Positions 1,252 to 33,282 of a stretch of DNA of 33,282 nt are shown in pieces (within the stretch, counting starts at the first letter, position 1; each line of letters starts with the position of its first letter). The notes beneath the pieces were generated by a model, which was not told the origin of the DNA, did no database searches, and was given only the letters and a program-made list of their open reading frames with translations. Position numbers and translations under genes: made by a program. Origin of the DNA: Bacteroidota bacterium (GTDB taxonomy: Bacteria > Bacteroidota > Bacteroidia > Palsa-948); the NCBI GenBank assembly GCA_023251625.1, contig JAHEYK010000013.1:1-33282 (forward strand), given 5' to 3'.

Positions 1252-2769
1252 TTAATTTTTATCCAACATTTCTTTTACAATTTGATTTGCAATTTTCGGA
1301 TCTGCTTTTCCTTTGGAGAGTTTCATTACTTCTCCCATGAACAGGCCTATCAATCCCACTTTTCCGGTTTTGTATTCCGCTACTTTCTCAGGGTATTTTG
1401 CAATAGCTTGCTTTGCAAATTCAGTGAGTGAGCCGGAATCACTTTCCTGGATAAGGTTCATCTCTTCGGCAATTTTTATAGGAGATTTTTTTGGATCGAC
1501 AACAAGGGCCGGAAATATTTTTTGGGAAGCGGCCGAGTGGCTTACTTTTCCATCTTCCACAATTTTTATCAGCTCAGAAAGTTGTTCTGTTGATAGGGGG
1601 AACTGATCGATCTCCACCGCTTTTTCATTCAGGTATGATTTTACAGAACCTGTCACCCAGTTTGAGGCTTGCTTGTAATTACTCGTGTGTGAAACAAGCT
1701 TCTCAAAATAAAGGGCGATCTCTTTTGTATCCGTAAGCACTCCGGCATCATAATCTGAAAGCCCGAATTCCTTTGTATATTTTTTGAAAAGCGCATCGGG
1801 CAGGGGAGGAAGATTTTTTCTTACCTCATCAATATAATTCTGCTCAACCAGAACGGGCTGCAGATCCGGCTCCGGAAAATAACGGTAGTCGTGCGCCTGT
1901 TCTTTAGAGCGCATAGAGAACGTAGTGCCTGTTGTGGCGTCAAAACTTCTTGTTTCCTGTTCAAAATCTTCTTTTCGTTCTGCAAGATCAATCAGTCTTT
2001 TTATTTCATGATCGATCGCTTTCTGCACATTGCGTATGGAGTTCATGTTTTTTACTTCCACACGTTTTCCGAATTCTTTCACACCCTTCAATCGTACCGA
2101 AATATTCGCATCGCATCGCAGGCTTCCTTCTTCCATGTTTCCATCGCAGATATCGAGGTAGCGGACCAGCTTTCTTACTTCCGTTAAATATTTGTAGGCT
2201 TCTTCTCCCGAAGCAATTTCAGGTTCGCTCACCATTTCCAGTAGCGGAACACCGGCACGGTTCAGGTCGATCAGTGTATTTTCGGGATCCTGGTCATGCA
2301 TGCTTTTTCCGGAATCTTCTTCCCAATGAATGCGTGTGAGGTTGATGCGTTTAGCCCCCCCGCCCCCCGAAGGGGGGATATTCGTGTGTGCTCCACTCTC
2401 AGGCTTCCCCCCTTTGGGAGGATTGAGGGGGGCCGGTAATTCTATCCATCCTCCCGTACAGATCGGAGTTTTATCTTGTGTGATTTGATAGCCCTTCGGC
2501 ATATCCGGATAAAAATAATTTTTGCGTGCGTACTGGTTTTCTCGTGTGATGTTGCAGTTGCAGGCAATCCCCAATCTCACAGCAAACTCAACCGTTCTTT
2601 TATTTGCCCTCGGCAAGGTGCCGGGATGCCCGAGCGTGATGACGCTTACGTTCGTATTTGGCAACGATCCGTACTCGGTAGAATCAGAAGAATATGCTTT
2701 GCTTTTGGTAAGCAGTTGGATGTGCACCTCCAGACCTATGACGGGTTCGTATTTATCGTAAACAGACAT
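1252..2769 (-). CDS. gatB: Aspartyl/glutamyl-tRNA(Asn/Gln) amidotransferase subunit B
   Basis: 'YEPVIGLEVHIQLLTKSKAYSSDS...HPGTLPRANKRTVEFAVRLG...NYFYPDMPKGYQITQ...EEDSGKSMHDQDPENTLIDLNRAGVPLLEMVSEPEI' is diagnostic of GatB; start placed at MSVYDKYE rather than the ORF-track MNLYLQ; contains a repeat-derived insertion. Confidence 0.96.
   Translation of the reverse strand: MSVYDKYEPVIGLEVHIQLLTKSKAYSSDSTEYGSLPNTNVSVITLGHPGTLPRANKRTVEFAVRLGIACNCNITRENQYARKNYFYPDMPKGYQITQDKTPICTGGWIELPAPLNPPKGGKPESGAHTNIPPSGGGGAKRINLTRIHWEEDSGKSMHDQDPENTLIDLNRAGVPLLEMVSEPEIASGEEAYKYLTEVRKLVRYLDICDGNMEEGSLRCDANISVRLKGVKEFGKRVEVKNMNSIRNVQKAIDHEIKRLIDLAERKEDFEQETRSFDATTGTTFSMRSKEQAHDYRYFPEPDLQPVLVEQNYIDEVRKNLPPLPDALFKKYTKEFGLSDYDAGVLTDTKEIALYFEKLVSHTSNYKQASNWVTGSVKSYLNEKAVEIDQFPLSTEQLSELIKIVEDGKVSHSAASQKIFPALVVDPKKSPIKIAEEMNLIQESDSGSLTEFAKQAIAKYPEKVAEYKTGKVGLIGLFMGEVMKLSKGKADPKIANQIVKEMLDKN
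2353..2434. repeat. Two-armed G/C palindromic repeat (family 'P'), in frame inside gatB
   Basis: agcccccccgccccccgaagggggg...cttcccccctttgggaggattgaggggggcc: two hairpins in inverted orientation; encodes PLNPPKGGKPESGAHTNIPPSGGGGAK. Confidence 0.85.
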
Positions 2770-3094: not shown

Positions 3095-6000
3095 ATGAAA
3101 AAAAATCTTCTGCTTTTTTTTGCATTTGTATTTCCATCAGCCTTCTGCCATCAGCCATCTGCCTTTGCGCAGGATGCGCGTCCTTACTTTCAACAGGAAG
3201 TTAGTTACAAAATAAATGTTACGCTAAATGATAAGAAGCATGAGTTGGCTGCTGATGAAAGTTTAGAGTATATCAACAATTCCCCCGATGATTTGACCTT
3301 TATATGGTTTCACCTTTGGCCAAACGGATACAAAAACAATAACACTCCACTCGGAATACAATTAACCGAAGAAGGAAACAAGAAATATTATTTTGCTTCT
3401 CCCGGAGATCGGGGCTATATCGATCAGCTTGATTTTAAAGTGAACGGACAGTCCGTAAAAACAGAAAACGGCCCGAGCATTGATATGTGCAAATTAATTT
3501 TGAACGAGCCGCTCAAACCCGGAGCAAAAATTACCATCACCACTCCTTTTCATGTAAAAGTACCCATTGGAATTTTTTCACGGCTGGGACACATTGGTCA
3601 GCAGTACCAGATCACGCAATGGTATCCCAAACCTGCGGTGTACGATAAATACGGATGGCACAACATCCCTTATTTAAATCAGGGAGAATTTTATTCCGAG
3701 TTCGGAAGTTTTGATGTGAGCATCACCCTGCCTAAAAATTATGTGTTGGGTGCAACCGGTACGATGGTGAACGGGGAAGAAGAAACAGCCTGGCTGATGA
3801 AAAATGCCGAAGAAACAAAAGCGATAGAAAAATATAATCCGCATGATACTGCCACTCCGGCCTCTTCTCCCGAAATGAAAACACTTCGCTTCCAGGCTTC
3901 CAATGTGCATGACTTCGGGTGGTTTGCCGACAAACGTTACCATGTGCTGCACGATGTAGTTGAGCTTCCGCATTCAAAAAATAAAGTGGATACCTGGGTG
4001 ATGTTCACAAATCTGTATGGTGAATACTGGAAGAAGGCTGCCAAGTATGTGAGCGATGCGGTTTATTATTATTCTTTGTGGAATGGTGATTATCCCTATC
4101 CGCATGCTACTGCCGTTGATGGCGCTTTGAGTGCCGGAGGAGGAATGGAATATCCGATGATCACGGTGATTGGTGGCGCAGGAAGTGATAATGAACTTGA
4201 CCGGGTAATTGCACACGAAGTAGGGCACAACTGGTTTTACGGAATTCTTGGCTCGAACGAGCGCGACCATGCTTGGATGGACGAAGGAATAAATTCTTTC
4301 AACGAGAATCGCTACATGGAAAAAAAGTATCCCAAAGATTCTGTTAAGTCTGACATGCAGGCGAATATAGGCGGACTTCCGATCAACATCGGAAAGCTTT
4401 TGGGAGTTCCGAACCTGGACGAATCTACGCTATTTGATCTCGGATATAGGTTTAATGCTGTGAGAAAACTCGATCAACCCGTGGATATGACTTCGAGTGA
4501 ATACACATCTATCAATTACGGTACGATCGTATATGGAAAAACAGCTGTGATACTGGCTTATTTGCAGGCTTATCTTGGAGAAGAAATGTACGACAAATGC
4601 GCGCAGGCCTATTTTGAAAAATGGAAGTTCCACCATCCTTATCCTCCTGACATTAAAAAGGTGTACGAAGAAGTTTCAGGAAAAGACCTGAGCTGGTTCT
4701 TTAAAGATATTATACAGACAACGAATCAGGTGGATTATAAAATTTGCTCTGCAAAAAAAATAGACGACAAAAATTTGGAAGTGAAAATAAAGAACAAAGG
4801 AAAAATAAGTTCACCTTTCAGCCTTTCAACCACTAAAGACGGAAAAATTATTTCTACACAATGGTATGATGGTCTTAAGGGAAAGAAAACTATAAACTTT
4901 TCCCTCCCTGGAGGGGAGGGTCAGGGTGGGGCTCTTGATATCTTAAAAATTGACGCTCAAAACAAAATACCCGACATCAACCGCCAGAATAATACCCTGA
5001 AGATGAAAGGCCTTTTCAAAAAGATGGAGCCATTGAATATCCACATGTTTGGTGTGGTAAACAACACGGATAAAACGCAATTGTTCTGGGCGCCCGTTGT
5101 TGGATGGAATGAATACGATCACTTTATGTTTGGTGCTTTGTTCTACAATAACCTGCTGATTGAGAAAAAACTGGAATGGCAACTTATGCCCATGTACAGT
5201 TATGCCAATAAAGACCTGGCAGGTGGGGCAAGCATTCATTATAATATTCATCCGAACAGTATTTTTCAAACGATCCGTTTTGGTGTGAATGGGGAACGCT
5301 ATGCATATAGTCGGTATGATCTTCCCAATTTAAATTTTAACAAGATCACTCCCGATCTCACATTTGAGCTCAAGAGAAAACATTTGAGAAGCACCGTAAA
5401 GCAAACTTTACGAATCCGTCAGGTCAATATTTTTAAAGAGGTTTCGGTTGGAGATTATTCTTTTTCACCTCCTGTTTACCAGTATGACACTACACACGTA
5501 GTAATTAATGATTTTACGTATTCTCTGAACGATACTCGGAAAATATATCCTTATAATGTGGCGTTGAATGTTCAGGAAGGAGAGAGTTTTGTGAAAAGCG
5601 CTGTTACAGCAAATTATAAAATAACATTCAAAAAGAAGGACAAAGCACTCGATATTCGTTTTTATGCAGGATATTTTATCGATGCAACTAAATTGAATGA
5701 CGGCAATTATTTTTTTAACGCAAGCGGCTCAACAGGCGCACACGATTATTTATATGATAATGTTTTCTTAGGCAGAAGTGAAGCGAGCGGATTTATGTCT
5801 CATCAGTTTGTGGAAGCAGAAGGCAATATGAAAGTATATACTCCACTCGGCAAGACCAACCAATGGCTCGGAGCAATAAACCTCAAATGCCCCTTGCCGG
5901 GGAAACTTCGCTTCAAGTTGTTTGCCGATATAAATATCATCCCGCAGAAAGCCGCTCTTCGTGAAGATGTATTATACGATGCTGGAATTTATCTCCCGAT

Positions 6001-9214: not shown

Positions 9215-10615
9215 ATGAAAAGATTGCCCCAAATAATTTCAGTGATCTTGACAGTTCTAGTCAACTGCAACTCATTGCTTGGGCAGAATATCGGCATCAA
9301 CACAGATGGAAGTACTGCCGAGAGCGGGACCCTGCTGGATGTGAAAGGGAGCAATTCAAAAACCAGTACAAACGTTCTTCAGAATATTTTTCAGATCAAA
9401 TCGCTGGATGCCAGTACCGATGCACTTAAGCTCCGACTTGGATTGTACACGAACAGCGGTACGCTTGCAAATCAATACGGTGTGATTGATGTGCCTGAAT
9501 ATTCCGGGGGAAGTATACTTGCTTACCGCCATCTTGCTTTGCAGCCGCTGGGTGGCAATGTGGGCGTTGGGACAGTTACTCCTGGAAAGACTCTGGACGT
9601 TGCGGGCACAGGAAGATTTTCTTCTGACCTTTTTGCAGAGACGAAAATTGTTTTTAACAGCAATGCAGCCTGGTATTATATCGGGGGTGGAGTCGCGAAT
9701 GGTTACATCGCGCAAACATGGGATGAGATACGTTATAAATTCGGAGGGGGCGGAGCTGACATTACCTTCAAGAATGGAAATATCGGAGTGGGAACGATCA
9801 CCCCTGCTGCTAAAATAGAAGTAGATGGTACCTCCGGCTCCACGATAAAAATTGTAGATACGAATCAGGGCCTTAATAAAGTTCTTACGTCTGATGCAAA
9901 TGGTCAGGGGAGTTGGCAAACACTTACTTCCATCGGTGGCGGTGGGTGTTTTACTAATTGGCAACTGTTCAGCGCCAGTGGAACTTTTACTGTTGCAGCA
10001 GGAGTAACTGTTATCAAAGTTGAGGTTTGGGGCGGTGGTGGTGGCGGTGCTACTGCGGCCGGCCTTGGAAATCGTGGTGGTGGCGGTGGTGGTGGTGGTG
10101 GTTACGCAGAAGGAACCTATACCGTGACGCCTGCTGCCACCCACGCGGTAACTATCGGAACGGGAGGAGCGGCAGGAACACCCGGAGTTGCCGGCGGAAC
10201 TACGAGCTTTGGCTCGCCTACCGTGATATCAGCAACCGGAGGAACTGGTGGTTTTGGCACTGGAGGAACGAGTGGTGGTAATGGCGGGGCGGGTGGTTTA
10301 GGAAGTGGTGGATATTTAAATAGCACACTGGGCTCTGGTGGATCGGGCGGATATAGTGCGGGTGCGAGCCCGGCCCAGACGAACTCTGCTACAAACGGAG
10401 CTGGAGGTGGCGGAGCGGGTGGGGTGATGGCCGGCACAGTCGCCGCCGGTGGTGGTGGTGGTGGAATTGGTGGAGGCAACGGTGGAGGGTTCGGTAGTAC
10501 CAGCGGGCAAAATGCAATCGTGAATACAGGGGCCGGTGGCGGAGGATCTTGCGATAGCGGAACGGGTGGAACTGGTGGAGCGGGAGCTGCCGGCCAAGTA
10601 ATAGTATTTTGGTAA
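9215..10615 (+). CDS. Secreted fibre-like protein with C-terminal glycine-rich domain
   Basis: Signal peptide; 'GNVGVGTVTPGKTLDVAG' and 'GNIGVGTITPAAKIEVDG' tail-fibre-like repeats; 'FTVAAGVTVIKVEVWGGGGGG' followed by ~180 aa Gly-rich region; no T9SS C-terminal domain visible. Confidence 0.8.
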   Translation: MKRLPQIISVILTVLVNCNSLLGQNIGINTDGSTAESGTLLDVKGSNSKTSTNVLQNIFQIKSLDASTDALKLRLGLYTNSGTLANQYGVIDVPEYSGGSILAYRHLALQPLGGNVGVGTVTPGKTLDVAGTGRFSSDLFAETKIVFNSNAAWYYIGGGVANGYIAQTWDEIRYKFGGGGADITFKNGNIGVGTITPAAKIEVDGTSGSTIKIVDTNQGLNKVLTSDANGQGSWQTLTSIGGGGCFTNWQLFSASGTFTVAAGVTVIKVEVWGGGGGGATAAGLGNRGGGGGGGGGYAEGTYTVTPAATHAVTIGTGGAAGTPGVAGGTTSFGSPTVISATGGTGGFGTGGTSGGNGGAGGLGSGGYLNSTLGSGGSGGYSAGASPAQTNSATNGAGGGGAGGVMAGTVAAGGGGGGIGGGNGGGFGSTSGQNAIVNTGAGGGGSCDSGTGGTGGAGAAGQVIVFW

Positions 10616-10651: not shown

Positions 10652-11440
10652 ATGATATCAAGAAACTTATCTTTGCGATCTGTGGCTAACATTTATTTTC
10701 TATCCGACTTCCACCTGGGTGCACCCGACTATGAAAAAAGCCTGGTTCGCGAAAAAAAGATCGTTGCCTTTCTCGATTCAATAAAGAAAGATGCGTCTGA
10801 AATTTACCTGATGGGTGATGTATTTGACTTTTGGTTTGAATACGGCAAGGCAATTCCCAAAGGGTTCGTCCGTTTGCTTGGAAAGTTGGCAGAACTTAGT
10901 GATTCAGGAATAAAACTTCATTACTTCACAGGCAACCATGATATGTGGGTGTTTGATTATTTGCCGAAAGAACTCAATCTGACTATTTACCGAAAACCAA
11001 TTACGAGAGAAATAAACGGAAAAAAATTTTATTTGGCACATGGTGATGGCCTTGGTCCGGGAGATTATGGTTACAAATTCATCAAAATGGTTTTTGCAAG
11101 TAAAATATGCCAATGGTTATTTGCACGCATCCATCCCAATCTTGGAATGAGCATAGCTCAGTTCTGGTCAGGGCAAAGCCGTAAGCTCACACAGGAACTA
11201 CATTTTCATGGAGAAGAGGAGTGGCTTGTTACCTATTCAAGAGAAGTTTTGAAAAAAGAGCATTTTGACTACTTAATTTTCGGTCATCGTCATCTTCCTG
11301 TGGATTACGCCTTGGCTCCTTCCCCTTCGGGGAAGGCGGGGGAAGGGGTGTCCCGTTACATAAACCTCGGCGAATGGGTCAACTACTTTTCGTATGCAGT
11401 TTTTGAAGGGAAAGACATTCAGCTGAAATATTATAAGTAA
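10652..11440 (+). CDS. lpxH: UDP-2,3-diacylglucosamine diphosphatase (LpxH-like metallophosphoesterase); true start may be GTG 10682
   Basis: 'IYFLSDFHLGAP', 'GDVFDFWFEYG', 'TGNHDMWVFDYL', 'AHGDGLGPGDYGYKFIK', 'FGHRHLPVDY...YINLGEW' metallophosphoesterase motifs. Confidence 0.88.
   Translation: MISRNLSLRSVANIYFLSDFHLGAPDYEKSLVREKKIVAFLDSIKKDASEIYLMGDVFDFWFEYGKAIPKGFVRLLGKLAELSDSGIKLHYFTGNHDMWVFDYLPKELNLTIYRKPITREINGKKFYLAHGDGLGPGDYGYKFIKMVFASKICQWLFARIHPNLGMSIAQFWSGQSRKLTQELHFHGEEEWLVTYSREVLKKEHFDYLIFGHRHLPVDYALAPSPSGKAGEGVSRYINLGEWVNYFSYAVFEGKDIQLKYYK
10668..10675 (+). promoter_or_regulatory. -7 element TATCTTTG lying inside the ORF-track N-terminus of the lpxH-like gene
   Basis: TATCTTTG 14 nt before in-frame GTG 10682. 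Confidence 0.45.
11316..11353 (+). repeat. Family 'P' half-element, in frame inside lpxH-like gene
   Basis: CTCCTTCCCCTTCGGGGAAGGCGGGGGAAGGGGTGTCC; encodes PSPSGKAGEGV between HRHLPVDY and SRYINLGEW. Confidence 0.8.
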
Positions 11441-13582
11441 ATGCGATCTCTCATCCTGTTTTTTTTCAAATATACTTTCGGGGCAGAAAACAAAAAAATA
11501 TTTTGCTTTTTATATTCATGTTTTTTTCTCTTATCAATTTCTGAACAAACATCGGCTCAAGGCACCTGGGCCGCAAAAACAAATTTTCCGGGAGCAGGAA
11601 GAAACACTGCGGTGGCATTTACGATCGGTGCCAAAGGATATTTCGGGACAGGATTCGGCAATGCAGGTGTTTATTTCCAGGATTTCTGGGAATATGATCC
11701 TACTTTAGACACCTGGACACAAAAAGCAAATTTTGGTGGAGGAGTAAGAGGATATGCGGTTGGGTTTTCCATAGGAAATTTTGGTTATGCCGGAACCGGG
11801 CAAGATGCTGCCGTAAAGAATAATGACTTCTGGAAATACGATCCGGCAGCAAACACTTGGTCACAAGTTGCAAACTTTGGCGGAACGGCACGGGCAATAG
11901 CCAGCGGATTTTCTGTAGGTAATTTTGGATATGCCGGTACCGGAGATGATGGCACTGTTCAGAAAAAAGATTTTTGGAAATATGATCCTGCTGGAAACAC
12001 CTGGACACAAATGGGAAATTTCCCCGGAGGAGTCCGCTCAGATCTTGACCGTGCTAATTTTGTGATCGGTAATTTTGCCTATTGGGGAACAGGCGCCAAT
12101 GGATGGAACGATCTCTGGCAGTATAACCCCACAACCGATGCATGGACACAGAAAGCAAATTTTCCAGGAGCGGGCAGATACGGAGCAACAGGTTTTTCTC
12201 TCTGCGGAATGGGGTATTTAGGATTAGGCACAGACGGCTCAGGAGGATATTATAATAATTACTGGCAGTATGATCCGGTGGCGAATTCATGGAGTACGAT
12301 ATCAGCACTTCCGGCTATCGGAAGATGTGATGCTCCCGCTTTTGTAGTGAACAACAAGGCCTATCTGGGCACAGGATATAGCCTGGGCAATGTTTTTCAT
12401 AATGACTGGTGGGAATTTTCTATGGGTAGTTCAACTACCATCACCGCAACAGCAAGCAGCACAACTATCTGCGCAGGAAATTCTGTAACGCTTACCGCGT
12501 CCGGAGGCAGCAGTTATACATGGAGCACAGGAAGTTCAGCAACATCCATTATTGTTTCTCCTACTTCTTCAACTTCTTATTCAGTTATGGATACTTCCAG
12601 CGCATGCGGGGGGTCTGCAATGATCTCCATTATGGTGGATGTGCAGCCAACAGTTTCGATCTCTTCGGGGGTAACTATCTGTTCAGGAAGTTCTGCAGCG
12701 TTGGCTGCTTCGGGAGGAGGAAATTATTCCTGGAGTACAGGGGCAACCAGCAGTTCGATCATCGTGTCGCCAACGGCAACCACTTCTTATTCTGTCAGTG
12801 TGACAAATTCCTGCGGGACAAGTACTGCATCTTCTTCAGTTATTGTGACTGCAAAAGCTACGGCAGGCATCTCATGCCAGAATGTTTGTTCGGGGAGTTT
12901 GGCAACGCTCACGGCATCCGGGGGCGGAACATATTCATGGTCAACCGGCTCAACCAATTCTTCTGTCAGCACCTCCGTGCCCGGTACTTATTCCGTCATC
13001 GTTTCTCTGGGTGCTGGCTGTTCGGATACCGCTTCCTGTACAGTGAGTGTTTTTGCCAATCCGCTAGCGGATGCAGGCCCTGATGTTACTATCTCCAACG
13101 GATCTTCTGTTACGCTTACAGCAAGTGGTGGAATTAATTATTCATGGAATACAGGCACTAGTTTGGCGGCCATCGTTGTTTCACCGGCAATCACATCCAC
13201 GTATACCGTTCTTGTTTCTGATGTAAATGGATGTTCGGCTACAGATACAGTGCATGTTTTTATTATGAATGATACAACAGACTGCTCGTATTCATCGCCA
13301 GACCAATTTTTAATTCCGAATGCATTTTCTCCCAATGGTGATAATGAGAATGAGACATTGAAATTGTTTTTCAAAAACTTTTCTTGTATAAGCGATTATG
13401 AATTTTACATCTATGACCGCTGGGGAGAAAAAGTATTTGAAGCGATCAATCCTATCAGTGAATGGGATGGCTCTTACGGGGAAAAAAAACAGAATACAGC
13501 TGTCTTTGCCTATTATATGAAAGCAACTCTACTGAACGGAGAACAAATAATCAAAAAAGGCAACATAAGTTTGTTCCGATGA
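11441..13582 (+). CDS. Six-bladed kelch protein with Ig/SprB-like repeats and T9SS type B C-terminal domain
   Basis: Repeated 'DFWKYDPAANTWSQVANFGGTAR...GFSVGNFGYAGTG'; C-terminal 'FLIPNAFSPNGDNENETLKL...FYIYDRWGEKVFEA...KKGNISLFR'. Confidence 0.9.
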   Translation: MRSLILFFFKYTFGAENKKIFCFLYSCFFLLSISEQTSAQGTWAAKTNFPGAGRNTAVAFTIGAKGYFGTGFGNAGVYFQDFWEYDPTLDTWTQKANFGGGVRGYAVGFSIGNFGYAGTGQDAAVKNNDFWKYDPAANTWSQVANFGGTARAIASGFSVGNFGYAGTGDDGTVQKKDFWKYDPAGNTWTQMGNFPGGVRSDLDRANFVIGNFAYWGTGANGWNDLWQYNPTTDAWTQKANFPGAGRYGATGFSLCGMGYLGLGTDGSGGYYNNYWQYDPVANSWSTISALPAIGRCDAPAFVVNNKAYLGTGYSLGNVFHNDWWEFSMGSSTTITATASSTTICAGNSVTLTASGGSSYTWSTGSSATSIIVSPTSSTSYSVMDTSSACGGSAMISIMVDVQPTVSISSGVTICSGSSAALAASGGGNYSWSTGATSSSIIVSPTATTSYSVSVTNSCGTSTASSSVIVTAKATAGISCQNVCSGSLATLTASGGGTYSWSTGSTNSSVSTSVPGTYSVIVSLGAGCSDTASCTVSVFANPLADAGPDVTISNGSSVTLTASGGINYSWNTGTSLAAIVVSPAITSTYTVLVSDVNGCSATDTVHVFIMNDTTDCSYSSPDQFLIPNAFSPNGDNENETLKLFFKNFSCISDYEFYIYDRWGEKVFEAINPISEWDGSYGEKKQNTAVFAYYMKATLLNGEQIIKKGNISLFR

Positions 13583-19521: not shown

Positions 19522-20820
19522 ATGGCAGAGATAGTTAGAATGCCCAAGCTCAGTGACACGATGACGGATGGAACCGTGTCCAGGTGGCTGAAGAAGGTTG
19601 GAGATAAAGTAAAATCGGGCGAGATCCTTGCTGAGATCGACAGCGACAAAGCCACGATGGAGTTTGAAAGTTTTTACGATGGAGTGCTGCTGTATATTGG
19701 TATTCCTGACAAAAAATCTGCTCCGGTAAATGCTATTCTTGCAATAATTGGAAATGCAGGAGAGGACGTTGCAAAGATCCTGGAAACTGAAAAAAATTCC
19801 ACACCCGTTAAAAAGGAAGAACCAAAGCCCGCTGCAAAAAAAGAGGAACCTAAAAAGGAAGTTGTTGTCGCAATAAAAACAGATACTGCGGCTGTTCATC
19901 AACATGCAGCCCTCCCCCTGCAGGGGGGAGAAGGAGGGGGGTCTTCCCGCATCAAAGCATCTCCTCTTGCAAAAAAACTTGCCAAAGATCAAAACCTGCG
20001 CATCTCATTGATCGGAGGAAGTGGTGATGGCGGCAGGGTAATAAAGAAGGACATTGAGAATTTCCTGCACTTTGGAAACGGTAAGTCCGGTGCGGTCATG
20101 AAGGAAAGCTATACCGAGGAATCTGTTTCTCAAATGCGCAAGACCATTGCAAAGCGTTTGAGCGAAAGCAAGTTCACTTCTCCGCATTTTTATCTCACTA
20201 TGGAAGTGAGTGCAGAAGAGATGGTCAAAATGCGTAGTACGATCAATGAAGTTTCGTCAACCAAACTTTCCTATAACGATCTTATTATCAAAGCCACCGC
20301 TGCCGCCCTGCGTGAACATCCCAAAGTGAATGCATCCTGGCTGGGTGATTCTTCGACAGGCTCAGAAGGGCCTGTGATACGCTACAACAATCATATTCAT
20401 ATCGGTGTTGCTGTTGCGGTAGAGGAGGGGCTGTTGGTTCCTGTAATTAAATTTGCCGATGGAAAAACACTTTCTCAGATTGCATCCGAGGTGAAAGGTT
20501 TTGCACAGAAAGCAAAAGAGAAAAAGCTTCAGCCCAAAGATTGGGAAGGAAACACATTCACGATCTCAAATCTCGGAATGTACGGCATCGAAGAATTTAC
20601 TGCTATCATCAATCCTCCCGATGCATGTATTTTAGCAGTAGGGGGAATAAAAGAAGTCCCTGTGGTGAAAGAAGGCAAAGTTGTTCCCGGAGTCATTATG
20701 AAAATGACCTTGTCCTGCGATCACAGGGTAGTGGATGGAGCGTTAGGCTCGGATTTCTTGCAAACATTAAAAACATTGTTAGAGAATCCGGTACTATTTT
20801 TAGGAGCAAGCTCAATTTGA
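19522..20820 (+). CDS. pdhC: Dihydrolipoyllysine-residue acetyltransferase (E2 of pyruvate dehydrogenase complex)
   Basis: Lipoyl domain 'AEIDSDKATMEFES'; peripheral subunit-binding domain 'SPLAKKLAKDQNLRISLIGGSGDGGRVIKKDIENF'; catalytic 'CDHRVVDGALGSDFL'. Confidence 0.96.
   Translation: MAEIVRMPKLSDTMTDGTVSRWLKKVGDKVKSGEILAEIDSDKATMEFESFYDGVLLYIGIPDKKSAPVNAILAIIGNAGEDVAKILETEKNSTPVKKEEPKPAAKKEEPKKEVVVAIKTDTAAVHQHAALPLQGGEGGGSSRIKASPLAKKLAKDQNLRISLIGGSGDGGRVIKKDIENFLHFGNGKSGAVMKESYTEESVSQMRKTIAKRLSESKFTSPHFYLTMEVSAEEMVKMRSTINEVSSTKLSYNDLIIKATAAALREHPKVNASWLGDSSTGSEGPVIRYNNHIHIGVAVAVEEGLLVPVIKFADGKTLSQIASEVKGFAQKAKEKKLQPKDWEGNTFTISNLGMYGIEEFTAIINPPDACILAVGGIKEVPVVKEGKVVPGVIMKMTLSCDHRVVDGALGSDFLQTLKTLLENPVLFLGASSI
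19911..19944 (+). repeat. Family 'P' half-element, in frame in the pdhC linker
   Basis: CCTCCCCCTGCAGGGGGGAGAAGGAGGGGGGTCT; encodes LPLQGGEGGGS. Confidence 0.8.
20351..20374 (+). repeat. In-frame repeat-word insertion CTTCGACAGGCTCAGAAGGGCCTG in the pdhC catalytic domain
   Basis: Encodes SSTGSEGPV between 'NASWLGD' and 'IRYNNHIHIG', a position I expect to be nearly contiguous in Bacteroidota E2 proteins. Confidence 0.55.
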
Positions 20821-21053: not shown

Positions 21054-21173
21054 CCACCCCTCTCCAGCTCTCCCCAAAGGGGAGAGAGACACGCGTGAAA
21101 ATGAGCTGCGCTCGCAACCTACGGTTGTCCTTGGGGGAGCCTGCCTGCGGTAGGCAGGGATTTAGGTGGGGTG
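21054..21173. repeat. Full two-armed family 'P' element filling the convergent gap
   Basis: ccacccctctccagctctccccaaaggggagagag...agcctgcctgcggtaggcagggatttaggtggggtg; inverted arms plus internal hairpins GAGCtgcGCTC and CAACCtacGGTTG. Confidence 0.8.
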
Positions 21174-24253: not shown

Positions 24254-25738
24254 ATGAAAACAAAAACTTTACTCTCCTTATTTTGCATCTTGTTTTCTTT
24301 TTCCTCATTTGCCCAATCATGGACACTAAAATCCCCTTTGGGTAAGTCGCGCGGATCGTCCGCTTTCTCCATTGGTACTAAAGGGTATATCGGAACCGGT
24401 GACCGTGGAGGAGCTTTTGCCACATCTGATTTCTGGGAATGGGACCAGGCCACGAACGTGTGGACACAAAAAGCAAATGTAGGCTCTCCCTATTGGCTGG
24501 GAGTTGGTTTTTCCATTGGCACTAAAGGGTATATTGGTGCCGGAGATGGTGGCGGTTTTCAAGGTACGAACACGTTATGGGAATGGGATCAGGCAACTAA
24601 TGTATGGACTCAAAAGGCAAACATGGGTGGTCCTGCGCTTAGAGAACAAGCAGCCGCTTTTTCTTTAGGAGGTTTTGGATATATTGGAACAGGAACGGAT
24701 AAATATGTTTGTCCGGGAAGCACCAACACTTCTTATAAAGATCTGTGGCAATTTAACCCGGGAACAAATGCCTGGACACAAATGGCAAACCTGCCCGGAA
24801 GCGCACGCTACGGCGCTACGGGTTTTTCTATCGGCACTAAAGGCTATATTACAAACGGACAAGATCAAACTTTAAATTTCTTTTCAGACCTGTGGGAATG
24901 GGACCAACCTTCAAACACCTGGTCGCAAAAAGCAAATTGCCCCGGAACTGCCCGCAGCGGCTTGGTCAGTTTTTCAATTGCAACTAAAGGCTACATGGGA
25001 ACCGGGGTAGATAAGGCCGGCAACAATATGAATGATTTCTGGCGATGGGATCAAGCCGTAAATACCTGGAAACAAATGCCCAACTTTGGAGGTAAAGGAA
25101 GATACTGGGCTGTTGGTTTTTCTATTGGCAACAAAGGATATGTTGGTACAGGTGACAGCGGACCTGTTTGTAATGATGCTCAAAAAGTGGAGGAAACCGA
25201 TTTCTGGGAATTCTCAGATACCACTTGCTTGGTTACCGCAGCCACATCCTCCGACCCTTCAATTACAGTTTGCAAAGGCTCTACTGTTTATGTAAGTGCC
25301 TCCGGAGGCGGAACCTATTCCTGGAATACAGGGCAAACAACCTCTTCTATCATTGTATATCCTGTGGTCACTACTACTTATTCGGTAACAGTAACAAACA
25401 CAAGCGGATGCAGTGGAGTTGTAACAATAACAATTCCTGTAGATACCAGTTGCTGGGTAACTACAGGTATAGCTCAGCTTAATACCGAGCACCATGTAGA
25501 CATTATGCCGAACCCGATGAGCGAATCATCTCTGTTGATTGTTTCAGGGGTAGAAGCTTCAGAACCCTACGAGGTGAAAATTTTGGATATGCTCGGTAAA
25601 GAAGTGAGAAGCATCAATCTTTCCGGCAGACAAAATACGATCGAGAGAGGCGGGCTCAATGAGGGTGTGTATTTTTATAAGATCATCTTCAGGAACAAGA
25701 GCAGCTCTTCGGGAAAAATTATTATAAGCAGGCAATAA
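24254..25738 (+). CDS. Six-bladed kelch protein with T9SS type A sorting domain (paralogue 1)
   Basis: Six 'FSIGTKGYIGTG...DFWEWDQATNVWTQKAN' units; C-terminal 'VDIMPNPMSESSLLIVSG...VKILDMLGKEVRSINL...YFYKIIFRNK'. Confidence 0.9.
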   Translation: MKTKTLLSLFCILFSFSSFAQSWTLKSPLGKSRGSSAFSIGTKGYIGTGDRGGAFATSDFWEWDQATNVWTQKANVGSPYWLGVGFSIGTKGYIGAGDGGGFQGTNTLWEWDQATNVWTQKANMGGPALREQAAAFSLGGFGYIGTGTDKYVCPGSTNTSYKDLWQFNPGTNAWTQMANLPGSARYGATGFSIGTKGYITNGQDQTLNFFSDLWEWDQPSNTWSQKANCPGTARSGLVSFSIATKGYMGTGVDKAGNNMNDFWRWDQAVNTWKQMPNFGGKGRYWAVGFSIGNKGYVGTGDSGPVCNDAQKVEETDFWEFSDTTCLVTAATSSDPSITVCKGSTVYVSASGGGTYSWNTGQTTSSIIVYPVVTTTYSVTVTNTSGCSGVVTITIPVDTSCWVTTGIAQLNTEHHVDIMPNPMSESSLLIVSGVEASEPYEVKILDMLGKEVRSINLSGRQNTIERGGLNEGVYFYKIIFRNKSSSSGKIIISRQ

Positions 25739-27836: not shown

Positions 27837-29303
27837 ATGAAAACAAAACTCTTCTTTTTCATCACCGTCTTCAGTTTTATCAGCATGATTGTTGGCGCAA
27901 CCGCAACATGGACCCAGCAGGCAAGTTTCCCCGGCCCCGGCAGAACGTATCCTATTGGTTTTTCTATCGGCACTAAAGGGTATATAGGCACAGGAACTAT
28001 TGGAACCAGTACGTATACCGATGATTTTTGGGAATGGGATCAGCCTACCAATGTCTGGACCCAAAGAGCCAATGTTCCTGGCGGGCCGAGAACAGAGGCA
28101 ATTTCTTTTTCCATCGGCAATAAAGGGTATGTAGCTCTCGGTGCTACTTCAGCGGGAGGGCTTGTGCAGGATTTATGGGAATGGGACCAGGCAACAAATG
28201 TATGGTCGGCAAAAGCAAATTTTACCGGCGCATCAAGGTTGTGGTCTGTAGGATTTTCAATAGGCACGCATGGATATATTTCAACAGGAAACAGTGGCCT
28301 CGCCTGGTACAACGATCTATGGGAATGGAATCAGACAAACAATGTATGGACACAAAAAGCCAACCTTGCCGGACCTGCAAGAATGGGAGCCGTAAGCTTT
28401 GCCATTGGCACGAAAGGATATATTGGAACAGGATGCGTCATGGGAAGCAATACTTTTAAAGATTTCTGGGAGTGGGATCAAACAACAAACATATGGACCC
28501 AAAGGGCAGATCTCCCGGGAACCGCAAGAACTTTTGCTGCTGGATTTTCTATTGGCAATAAAGGCTTTATAGGTACAGGAGCTGATAAAACCGGAGCACC
28601 CCTTAAGGATTTCTGGAAATGGGATCAGGCAACAAACACATGGATACAAGGCCCTGATTATGGGGGTGGACCCATACGCGATGGAGTGGGTTTTGCCATT
28701 GGCAATTCTGGCTATATCGGAGCAGGAAGTCCAAATGCAAATAAGAGCAATCCTGTAAGCACATTCTGGCAATATGCGGATTCTACTTGTAAAATCTCGC
28801 CTGTTATATCTTCAGACCCGGGTTCAGGAACAACTCTTTGTGTTGGCCAAACTGTTTATGTGAATGCTTCAGGTGGAATTACTTATTCATGGAGCAACGG
28901 TGCTTCGGGTGCCAATATCACGCTGCATCCTACAACTACTACGGTGTATTCAGTATTTGTAACAAATGCCAATGGGTGTACAGGTACCAGCAGTATTACT
29001 CTTATTGTAGATACGAGTTGTACGGCAACAGGAGTGTCTTCCATTTATCCGGATCCTGTGCAAGCGACTATTTTTCCAAGCCCTTTTAATCAATCAGCAA
29101 CACTTATTATGACAGGTACTGGAAATTTAGAGCAAGAGATGAAAATTTTTGATATGTTGGGAAAAGAGGTGAGAAACGTTAAATTCTCCGGACAGGAACT
29201 AAAACTCGATAGAGGAAGCATGATGGATGGAATTTATTTATACAAAATAATTTCGAAGGATCAAGTCATTGCCGCTGGCAAATTCATCATTGGTAAGTTA
29301 TAG
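27837..29303 (+). CDS. Six-bladed kelch protein with T9SS type A sorting domain (paralogue 2)
   Basis: Same kelch unit as 24254-25738; C-terminal 'ATIFPSPFNQSATLIMTGTG...KIFDMLGKEVRNVKF...IYLYKIISKDQ'. Confidence 0.9.
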   Translation: MKTKLFFFITVFSFISMIVGATATWTQQASFPGPGRTYPIGFSIGTKGYIGTGTIGTSTYTDDFWEWDQPTNVWTQRANVPGGPRTEAISFSIGNKGYVALGATSAGGLVQDLWEWDQATNVWSAKANFTGASRLWSVGFSIGTHGYISTGNSGLAWYNDLWEWNQTNNVWTQKANLAGPARMGAVSFAIGTKGYIGTGCVMGSNTFKDFWEWDQTTNIWTQRADLPGTARTFAAGFSIGNKGFIGTGADKTGAPLKDFWKWDQATNTWIQGPDYGGGPIRDGVGFAIGNSGYIGAGSPNANKSNPVSTFWQYADSTCKISPVISSDPGSGTTLCVGQTVYVNASGGITYSWSNGASGANITLHPTTTTVYSVFVTNANGCTGTSSITLIVDTSCTATGVSSIYPDPVQATIFPSPFNQSATLIMTGTGNLEQEMKIFDMLGKEVRNVKFSGQELKLDRGSMMDGIYLYKIISKDQVIAAGKFIIGKL

Positions 29304-29448: not shown

Positions 29449-30720
29449 ATGAAGAAGATATTCTTGATATTCCTTTTGACTTTTAACTTTTGTCTTTTGA
29501 CCTGGGCTTCCTCCATTTTAATTCCTATGGATGAATCCCAAAAAAATCATCTCAAAGCCTATGGTATTACCTATTGGATATTACAACAAGGAGGAACTGC
29601 ACAGTGGCTTTTGAATTACAGGGGCGGAAGTTTTATGTTTGACTATAATAAGGAGGTTGAAAAAGAATGCACCATCCGTGGAATATCTTATGAAGTGATA
29701 GCCGATGCAAAAGCAAATTCAATTCTTACTGAGATCGGCAGCCCTGAAGCAAACATGGATGCAGTGAAATTGGAGAAATGCCCGAAGATCGCAGTATACT
29801 CACCTAAGACAAAACAGCCCTGGGATGATGCAGTAACGCTCGTGCTCAAATATGCAGAGATCCCGTATGAAGTTGTGTTTGATGATGAAGTGATGGGTGA
29901 TAAATTAGTTACGTATGATTGGCTTCACCTGCATCACGAAGATTTTACCGGGCAGTATGGACGGTTTTGGTTCCAATACCGAACTGCGGCCTGGTATCAG
30001 AATGAAGTAAAAGAAGCCGAAGCCACAGCACAAAGATTTGGATTTACAAAAGTATCGCAGCTGAAACTGGCGGTCGCAAAAAAGATCCGTGATTTTGTAA
30101 CAGGCGGTGGGTTTTTGTTTGCCATGTGTTCAGCGACTGATTCGTACGACATCGCCCTGGCCGCTGAAGGCGTTGACATCTGTGAAAGTATGTTCGACGG
30201 TGACGGTGCTGATCCTAACATGAATAAGAAAATTGATTACTCAAAAGGATTTGCATTCCGTAATTATACACTCAATGCAAATCCTATAGAATACGAGTTT
30301 GCCAACATTGATACCTATCATACGCGTGTTCCGAAGTATGGGGTCGCTGAACCTACTGATCTTTTTACTTTGTTCGAGTTCTCAGCAAAGTGGGATCCTG
30401 TTCCAACCATGCTCTGTCAGAATCATACAAATGTTATTAAAGGTTTTTGGGGACAAACAGTCGCCTTCGATAAAACATTTGTAAAGCCCGATGTGCTGGT
30501 GATGGGCGAGGCAAAACAGTTGAACGAGGTACGATACTGCCATGGAGATTTTGGAAAAGGTTTCTGGACCTTTTACGGTGGCCACGACCCCGAAGATTAT
30601 CAGCACCAGGTTTCAGATCCCCCAACAGATCTTTCCCTTCATCCGAATTCTCCCGGCTATCGCCTGATATTGAATAATATTCTTTTCCCTGCAGCAAAAA
30701 AGAAAAAGCAGAAAACGTAA
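29449..30720 (+). CDS. Conserved secreted Bacteroidota protein, often annotated 'asparagine synthetase B'
   Basis: 'ILIPMDESQKNHLKAYGITYWILQQGGTAQWLLNYRGGSFMFDY' signature; signal peptide; no GATase/AsnB catalytic motifs seen. Confidence 0.7.
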   Translation: MKKIFLIFLLTFNFCLLTWASSILIPMDESQKNHLKAYGITYWILQQGGTAQWLLNYRGGSFMFDYNKEVEKECTIRGISYEVIADAKANSILTEIGSPEANMDAVKLEKCPKIAVYSPKTKQPWDDAVTLVLKYAEIPYEVVFDDEVMGDKLVTYDWLHLHHEDFTGQYGRFWFQYRTAAWYQNEVKEAEATAQRFGFTKVSQLKLAVAKKIRDFVTGGGFLFAMCSATDSYDIALAAEGVDICESMFDGDGADPNMNKKIDYSKGFAFRNYTLNANPIEYEFANIDTYHTRVPKYGVAEPTDLFTLFEFSAKWDPVPTMLCQNHTNVIKGFWGQTVAFDKTFVKPDVLVMGEAKQLNEVRYCHGDFGKGFWTFYGGHDPEDYQHQVSDPPTDLSLHPNSPGYRLILNNILFPAAKKKKQKT

Positions 30721-30730
30721 CTGGCTGTTT

Positions 30731-30765
30731 CTCCCTCTCCTTGAGGAGAGGGTTGGGGAGAGGCT
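30731..30765 (+). repeat. Family 'P' half-element in the convergent gap
   Basis: CTCCCTCTCCTTGAGGAGAGGGTTGGGGAGAGGCT; hairpin plus G-rich arm, running into the stop codon of the downstream - strand gene. Confidence 0.8.

Positions 30766-33192: not shown

Positions 33193-33282
<90 letters not shown>

Follow-up and report, generated by a model that had tools for sequence, protein, structure and literature searches.

An in-frame palindromic element in gatB and its repeat family in a genus of Bacteroidota

Most palindromic elements known to lie in frame within genes come from Rickettsia and Wolbachia, and intragenic REPs have been seen here and there in other bacteria. In the genome of an uncultured Bacteroidota bacterium (G000), a gene for a tRNA amidotransferase subunit is read straight through a two-armed palindrome, which raises the question of what this palindrome is, how it came to be there and whether the protein still works. 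The window, i.e., the whole stretch of 33,282 nt that was analyzed, carries the gene together with further palindromic units (Table 1).

Table 1. Positions in the window of gatB, its palindromic element and other units of the repeat family
Feature	Position	Strand	Remarks
gatB, Asp-tRNA(Asn)/Glu-tRNA(Gln) amidotransferase subunit B	1252..2769	-	ATG at 2769, stop ends at 1252; NCBIfam and PDB matches; broken in frame by the palindromic element
Whole palindromic element	2353..2434		two inverted C/G hairpin units, G-rich tails outward; ~27 gatB residues
Hairpin unit 1	2363..2377		CCCCCC-GAA-GGGGGG; encodes IPPSGG
Hairpin unit 2	2407..2421		CCCCCC-TTT-GGGAGG, one imperfect pair; encodes PPKGG
Single unit in peptidase-like ORF	4902..4920		SLPGGEGQGGA
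Single unit in LpxH-like ORF	11318..11336		APSPSGKAGEG
Single unit in PDH E2 ORF, linker region	19912..19930		ALPLQGGEGGG
Intergenic unit	21068..21086		CTCTCCCC-AAA-GGGGAGAG
Intergenic unit, second variant	30733..30752		downstream of ORF 29449-30720

The insert in GatB

The gatB product matches GatB profiles over its full length and above curated cut-offs (NF004014, 617.5 bits against 414; TIGR00133, 522.8 against 314.8), and the PDB chains 3h0l_B and 2df4_B align to it with a gap at the insert. The first-pass annotation had described a two-armed palindromic element here, translated without stop or frameshift. Both points were borne out: the minus-strand translation reads ...TPICTGGWIELPAPLNPPKGGKPESGAHTNIPPSGGGGAKRINLTRIHWEEDSGK... 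across the element with neither, and the element, about 82 bp long, is a two-unit inverted palindrome of two C/G hairpins whose outer arms are complementary to each other (GCCCCCC at about 2354-2360, GGGGGGC at 2427-2433); G002 has a corresponding insert. The insert peptide, PLNPPKGGKPESGAHTNIPPSGGGGAK, is placed between the conserved GatB motifs TPICTGG and TRIH.EED.GKS. When folded as single-stranded DNA, the plus strand pairs the two units together in a single long hairpin (-22.1 kcal/mol, z -2.63, with 2 of 200 shuffles equally good), and the minus strand gives a z of -1.65; since the units can pair in this way, the two separate hairpins are one of two possible folds.

GatB loci were retrieved from 29 relatives in related genomes. 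The loop is a short canonical turn of about 6-8 residues in 27 of them, as the annotation had expected of GatB, and at L015 the loop could not be parsed; the remaining relative, G002 of the same genus, has a two-unit insert at the matching position with a different spacer (reading GGYITIKAPPPPKGGHPGDTSSKIPPSGGGGASKRINL). Thus the close relatives have short loops and the one long loop is itself a repeat, which disposes of the objection that similar-length, non-repeat loops might be usual here. G006, also of the genus, has a plain loop, GGFITIKNSDGSEKKIYL. G002 groups with G000 as its sister species (bootstrap 100), and the two-unit copy was most likely gained before they split. The earlier figure of some 27 added residues holds for what the element encodes, whereas on balance GatB is longer by about 21 residues in G000, 28 replacing the NSDGSEK of G006, and by 20 in G002.

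An additional scan of genome contigs yielded 80 GatB relatives, the best at 68% and none near enough for genus membership, and the alignment for structure modeling drew on a subset of these. The AlphaFold2 model (32 sequences) has a mean pLDDT of 82.1, but residues 116-137 fall below 50 and are flanked by strands 108-111 and 140-151, and the insert is accordingly predicted to be a disordered extension replacing a 7-residue β-hairpin turn, a few residues ahead of the invariant IH.EED.GK motif. The model thereby supports, short of proof, the surface exposure that had been supposed.

Within the genus, gatB is present in G000, G002 and G006 and absent from G001, G003, G004 and G005. All four gatB-less genomes have glnS above cut-off, and glnS was undetected in the three gatB-bearing members among the seven searched. 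The distribution of gatA equals that of gatB, apart from a weaker amidase match below cut-off in G003, and asnS is present in all seven. As G000 is a MAG of 178 contigs and 79% complete, the missing glnS there would by itself be no evidence; the genus-wide pattern is. Confinement of gatA and gatB to the members with no detected glnS indicates that GatB is probably essential, and GatCAB likely serves Gln-tRNA(Gln) synthesis there as the sole route. The annotation had called the amidotransferase essential; its identity is secured by the profile scores, and its essentiality gains indirect support from the glnS/gatA pattern. Gene content and conservation together suggest that GatB with the insert works, and the insert is presumably neutral to the protein. 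The mutual exclusivity of gatA/gatB and glnS within one genus, with three GatCAB species and four glnS species, also suggests that one route to Gln-tRNA was recently exchanged for the other.

A repeat family inside and between genes

A strict hairpin scan (pyrimidine 5' arm of at least 6, loop of 2-5) was run on 414 kb of G000, sampled as contigs already known to contain a pattern match, and found 60 C-rich hairpins compared with 0 in the reversed-sequence control. Over the whole G000 genome, CTCCCCN{2,5}GGGGAG occurs 66 times against 0 in the control; the counts for G001-G006 are 6, 107, 27, 127, 77 and 21, and those outside the genus range from 0 to 16 except in G052 (53) and G059 (33). The aligned units consist of a hairpin and, after it, a G-rich tail, often with GGCT ahead of the hairpin (19 of 60), and carry C/T on one arm and G/A on the other. 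Two variants were distinguished, CTCTCCCC-TTT-GGGGAGAG-TTGGAGAGGGGTG and CCCCTCTCC..GGAGAGGGG-TTGGGGGTGAGG, and every detected dimer (11/11) is inverted with its tails outward. A specific unit-plus-tail pattern was matched in one of 297 phylum genomes, the window's own, in a draw that excluded other genus members; a slightly shorter version was matched in six of the seven genus members as well as in G052 and G013. Four hairpins of the family lie inside ORFs of the window. An Rfam scan of the window gave no match to a palindromic element, its sole match being the 5' end of a 16S rRNA (RF00177) at 33193-33282 on the plus strand, cut by the contig end.

In the 414-kb sample, 44 of the 60 hairpins (36 of 49 elements) lie inside ORFs of at least 100 aa, and 28 of 298 such ORFs, ~9%, bear them. 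This intragenic share is below the coding fraction of 92.5% obtained, like the gene calls, with a greedy ORF rule (depletion P = 5e-5), which points to some selection against copies in genes, far weaker than in the usual extragenic distribution of REPs. Units inside genes have on average 5.1 of 6 frames open against a background of 4.05, and when the anchor is fixed, each of the six combinations of orientation and frame is occupied (12, 7, 7, 7, 6 and 5); an apparent frame bias was an artifact of anchoring on variable-length arms. Intrinsic terminators within coding sequence were also considered and rejected, none of the 44 intragenic hairpins being followed by a T-run. Hosts matched in NCBIfam, in a scan that excluded a FtsY-like ORF, comprise an IscS-type cysteine desulfurase (four units), HisF, ApbC/Mrp, glycyl-tRNA ligase, dihydroorotase, ThiC, riboflavin synthase, an rRNA methyltransferase, an LpxH-like protein and PDH E2; some of these ORFs fall below strict equivalog cut-offs, as expected with broken-up alignments.

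We consider the gatB insert, with a probability of about 0.86, to be a tolerated copy, lying in frame, of a mobile palindromic repeat of REP/RPE-like type whose family is spread across the genus. The unit is a short hairpin of either variant with its G-rich tail, occurring singly or as two inverted units with their tails outward, foldable into one long hairpin, and copies lie in coding and non-coding DNA alike, presumably inserted by a trans-acting enzyme. Because the unit is stop-poor in all six frames and encodes a Pro/Gly/Ser-rich peptide, copies that keep the frame by their net length and land in surface turns can persist in working proteins. In gatB, a two-unit copy took the place of the β-hairpin turn, leaving a disordered peptide in a protein that probably remains functional.

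Same loops in different species and competing explanations

Five genes with eight filled sites in G000 were compared across the genus, and seven of these sites hold a copy in one or more of the other species. In the cysteine desulfurase, three sites (1, 3 and 4) carry copies in G000, G002 and G005 and none in G001, G004 and G006; G003 shares the filled site 1. The GlyRS site is occupied in G000 and G004, whereas G002, although the sister species of G000, has no copy there; the HisF site is filled in G000 and G004, and the Mrp site in G000 and G002. On the tree, several shared sites would need independent gains or several exact losses. Empty loops retain canonical residues that filled loops have lost, which favors gains over losses; since internal branches beyond G000+G002 have weak support (45-80), independent gains are suggestive rather than proven. 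As to the marks of a MITE, the outer arms are complementary, and the comparisons of filled loops established neither a target-site duplication nor a clean empty site. A duplication would not be visible where the ancestral residues are gone, and their loss implies that deletion or drift accompanied or came after insertion. As separate observations, the cysteine desulfurase ORF (L079:6046-7359) carries four separate palindromic insertions, three of them at sites also filled in G002 and G005, and a single loop of gatA is occupied differently in three species, by a palindrome in G000 (L215), by a different palindrome in G002 (L213) and, in G006 (L214), by a tandem CAGTTGGCAGTCGG repeat unrelated to these.

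An assembly error was the other objection foreseen for the insert, and the fragmentary state of the G000 MAG would allow for it or for a binning or sequencing artifact. The matching insert with a diverged spacer in G002, an independent MAG of a different species, rules out an assembly error, and with the frame intact and similar inserts in many genes of several genomes, an artifact of any kind has a negligible probability. It is also very improbable that the loop merely lengthened through low-complexity Pro/Gly drift: the peptide is rich in Pro and Gly and loops are free to vary, but the underlying DNA is a two-unit palindrome of an architecture found genome-wide and in all reading frames, and the copies between genes refute such drift. 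More weight attaches to the proposal that selection at the DNA or RNA level, for mRNA structure, pausing or a protein-binding site, keeps the hairpin beyond mere tolerance, which we nevertheless judge unlikely. Between G000 and G002, GatB is 85% identical and four-fold sites in gatB agree at 46.5% (86/185), yet in the arms of the element 12 of 14 four-fold codons match; the P of about 0.003 is only indicative, given that these codons were hand-picked after the alignment had been seen, and the spacer is unalignable. Similarly, the first half of the GlyRS element is near letter-identical in G000 and G004 despite 41% identity at four-fold sites overall. Such arm conservation would, however, arise alike from structural selection, from enzyme recognition, from conversion between copies, from recent independent insertion or from interspecies exchange, and the gatB hairpin is absent from G006 and from relatives outside the genus, while the intragenic hairpins lack T-runs and the element has no Rfam match. 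Rather less firmly than the tolerated-copy reading itself, one may picture the family as currently mobile, repeatedly entering, or replacing copies in, a few same protein loops across species, so that it effectively homes to translation-tolerant sites and its hairpins are kept by recognition or conversion while nearby synonymous sites saturate; this picture strikes us as rather unlikely.

Nested within the tolerated-copy reading is a REPIN mechanism, in which Y1/HUH (RAYT-type) transposases of the genome would mobilize the element; this is possible but on present evidence not the likelier course. The inverted two-unit architecture resembles REPINs, and in the genus the numbers of Y1_Tnp genes track those of hairpins (rho 0.89-0.95, n=7, for genomes that are not phylogenetically independent), with G001 low in both (0 Y1 genes, only 6 hairpins). 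Across the class, on the other hand, the two counts correlate weakly (rho 0.33-0.38), and G035 combines 12 Y1 genes with 0 hairpins. C-rich hairpins show no enrichment near Y1 genes, lying within 1.5 kb at 4 of 20 loci, no more often than general density predicts, with the nearest about 0.3 kb away, and most Y1 genes with parsed flanks (7 of 19 loci were not parsable for gene ends) have hairpins of their own that differ from the unit. GTAG occurs within 22 nt of 4 of the 60 hairpins (6.7%, against a background of 13%) and CTAC at 3.3% against 15.4%, and no REPtron, the association of GTAG REPs with a flanking RAYT gene, was found at the Y1 loci examined. Neither the copy-number correlation nor the Y1 flanks thus tied a mobilizer to the unit. 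Among the small Y1 (IS200-like) genes, L085, L090, L092 and L102 adjoin their own 9-bp-arm hairpins, which differ from gene to gene.

Relation to known palindromic repeats

According to the available descriptions, RPEs lie in frame in conserved Rickettsia proteins, solvent-exposed and often at the same site in orthologues (Ogata 2000 via PMC2229807, PMC3767692), and measure 105-146 bp (PMC2229807). The present family, compared with these descriptions, is likewise a palindromic repeat in frame within conserved ORFs, often at the same orthologue site; it differs in phylum, in size (a unit of about 45 bp and a dimer of about 80 bp) and in having about three quarters of its copies inside ORFs. REPs of the GTAG and CGTC classes are also known within genes, some of them in tRNA synthetases; the CGTC class has been reported in Bacteroidetes and has no known dedicated transposase (PMC3733652). 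As in these classes, short stem-loops occur here singly or as inverted dimers, some within genes including those of tRNA synthetases; unlike them, mostly intergenic as they are, the family is mostly intragenic, and neither tag is enriched. Its C/G-rich hairpins lack the CGTC tag that is a feature of rickettsial REPs: CGTC was seen at 2 of the 60 hairpins, below background, and the arms, C/T on one side and G/A on the other, differ from the stems of that class, which begin with A/T pairs. One unit variant has GAGG at its end, complementary to the CCTC tag that is reported as a variant in CGTC REPs, so that a distant link to these, judged by motif, may exist. REPIN or BIME dimers are described as going with RAYT transposases (PMC6006769); the family shares with REPINs the two inverted units able to form one long hairpin, and differs from them in that no REPtron was found and the Y1 genes of the genus have other hairpins. 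In its working the family resembles RPEs and REPIN dimers, from which the lack of both tags, the size and the intragenic share keep it separate, and we found no published description of it in the open-access literature.

The genus thus adds a case in Bacteroidota in which about 9% of sampled ORFs, including presumably needed enzymes, carry in-frame palindromes. With seven sequenced species whose loops are empty, filled or differently filled, how selfish DNA becomes protein sequence can now be asked, as can which loops tolerate insertion and whether insertion is targeted.

Elsewhere in the window, three ORFs with Kelch-like repeats (11441-13582, 24254-25738 and 27837-29303) share a common internal repeat of 144-150 bp and have, by eye, sorting-type C-terminal ends. 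The ORF at 9215-10615 has a long Gly-rich C-terminal half, over part of which the antisense strand is open for 262 codons.
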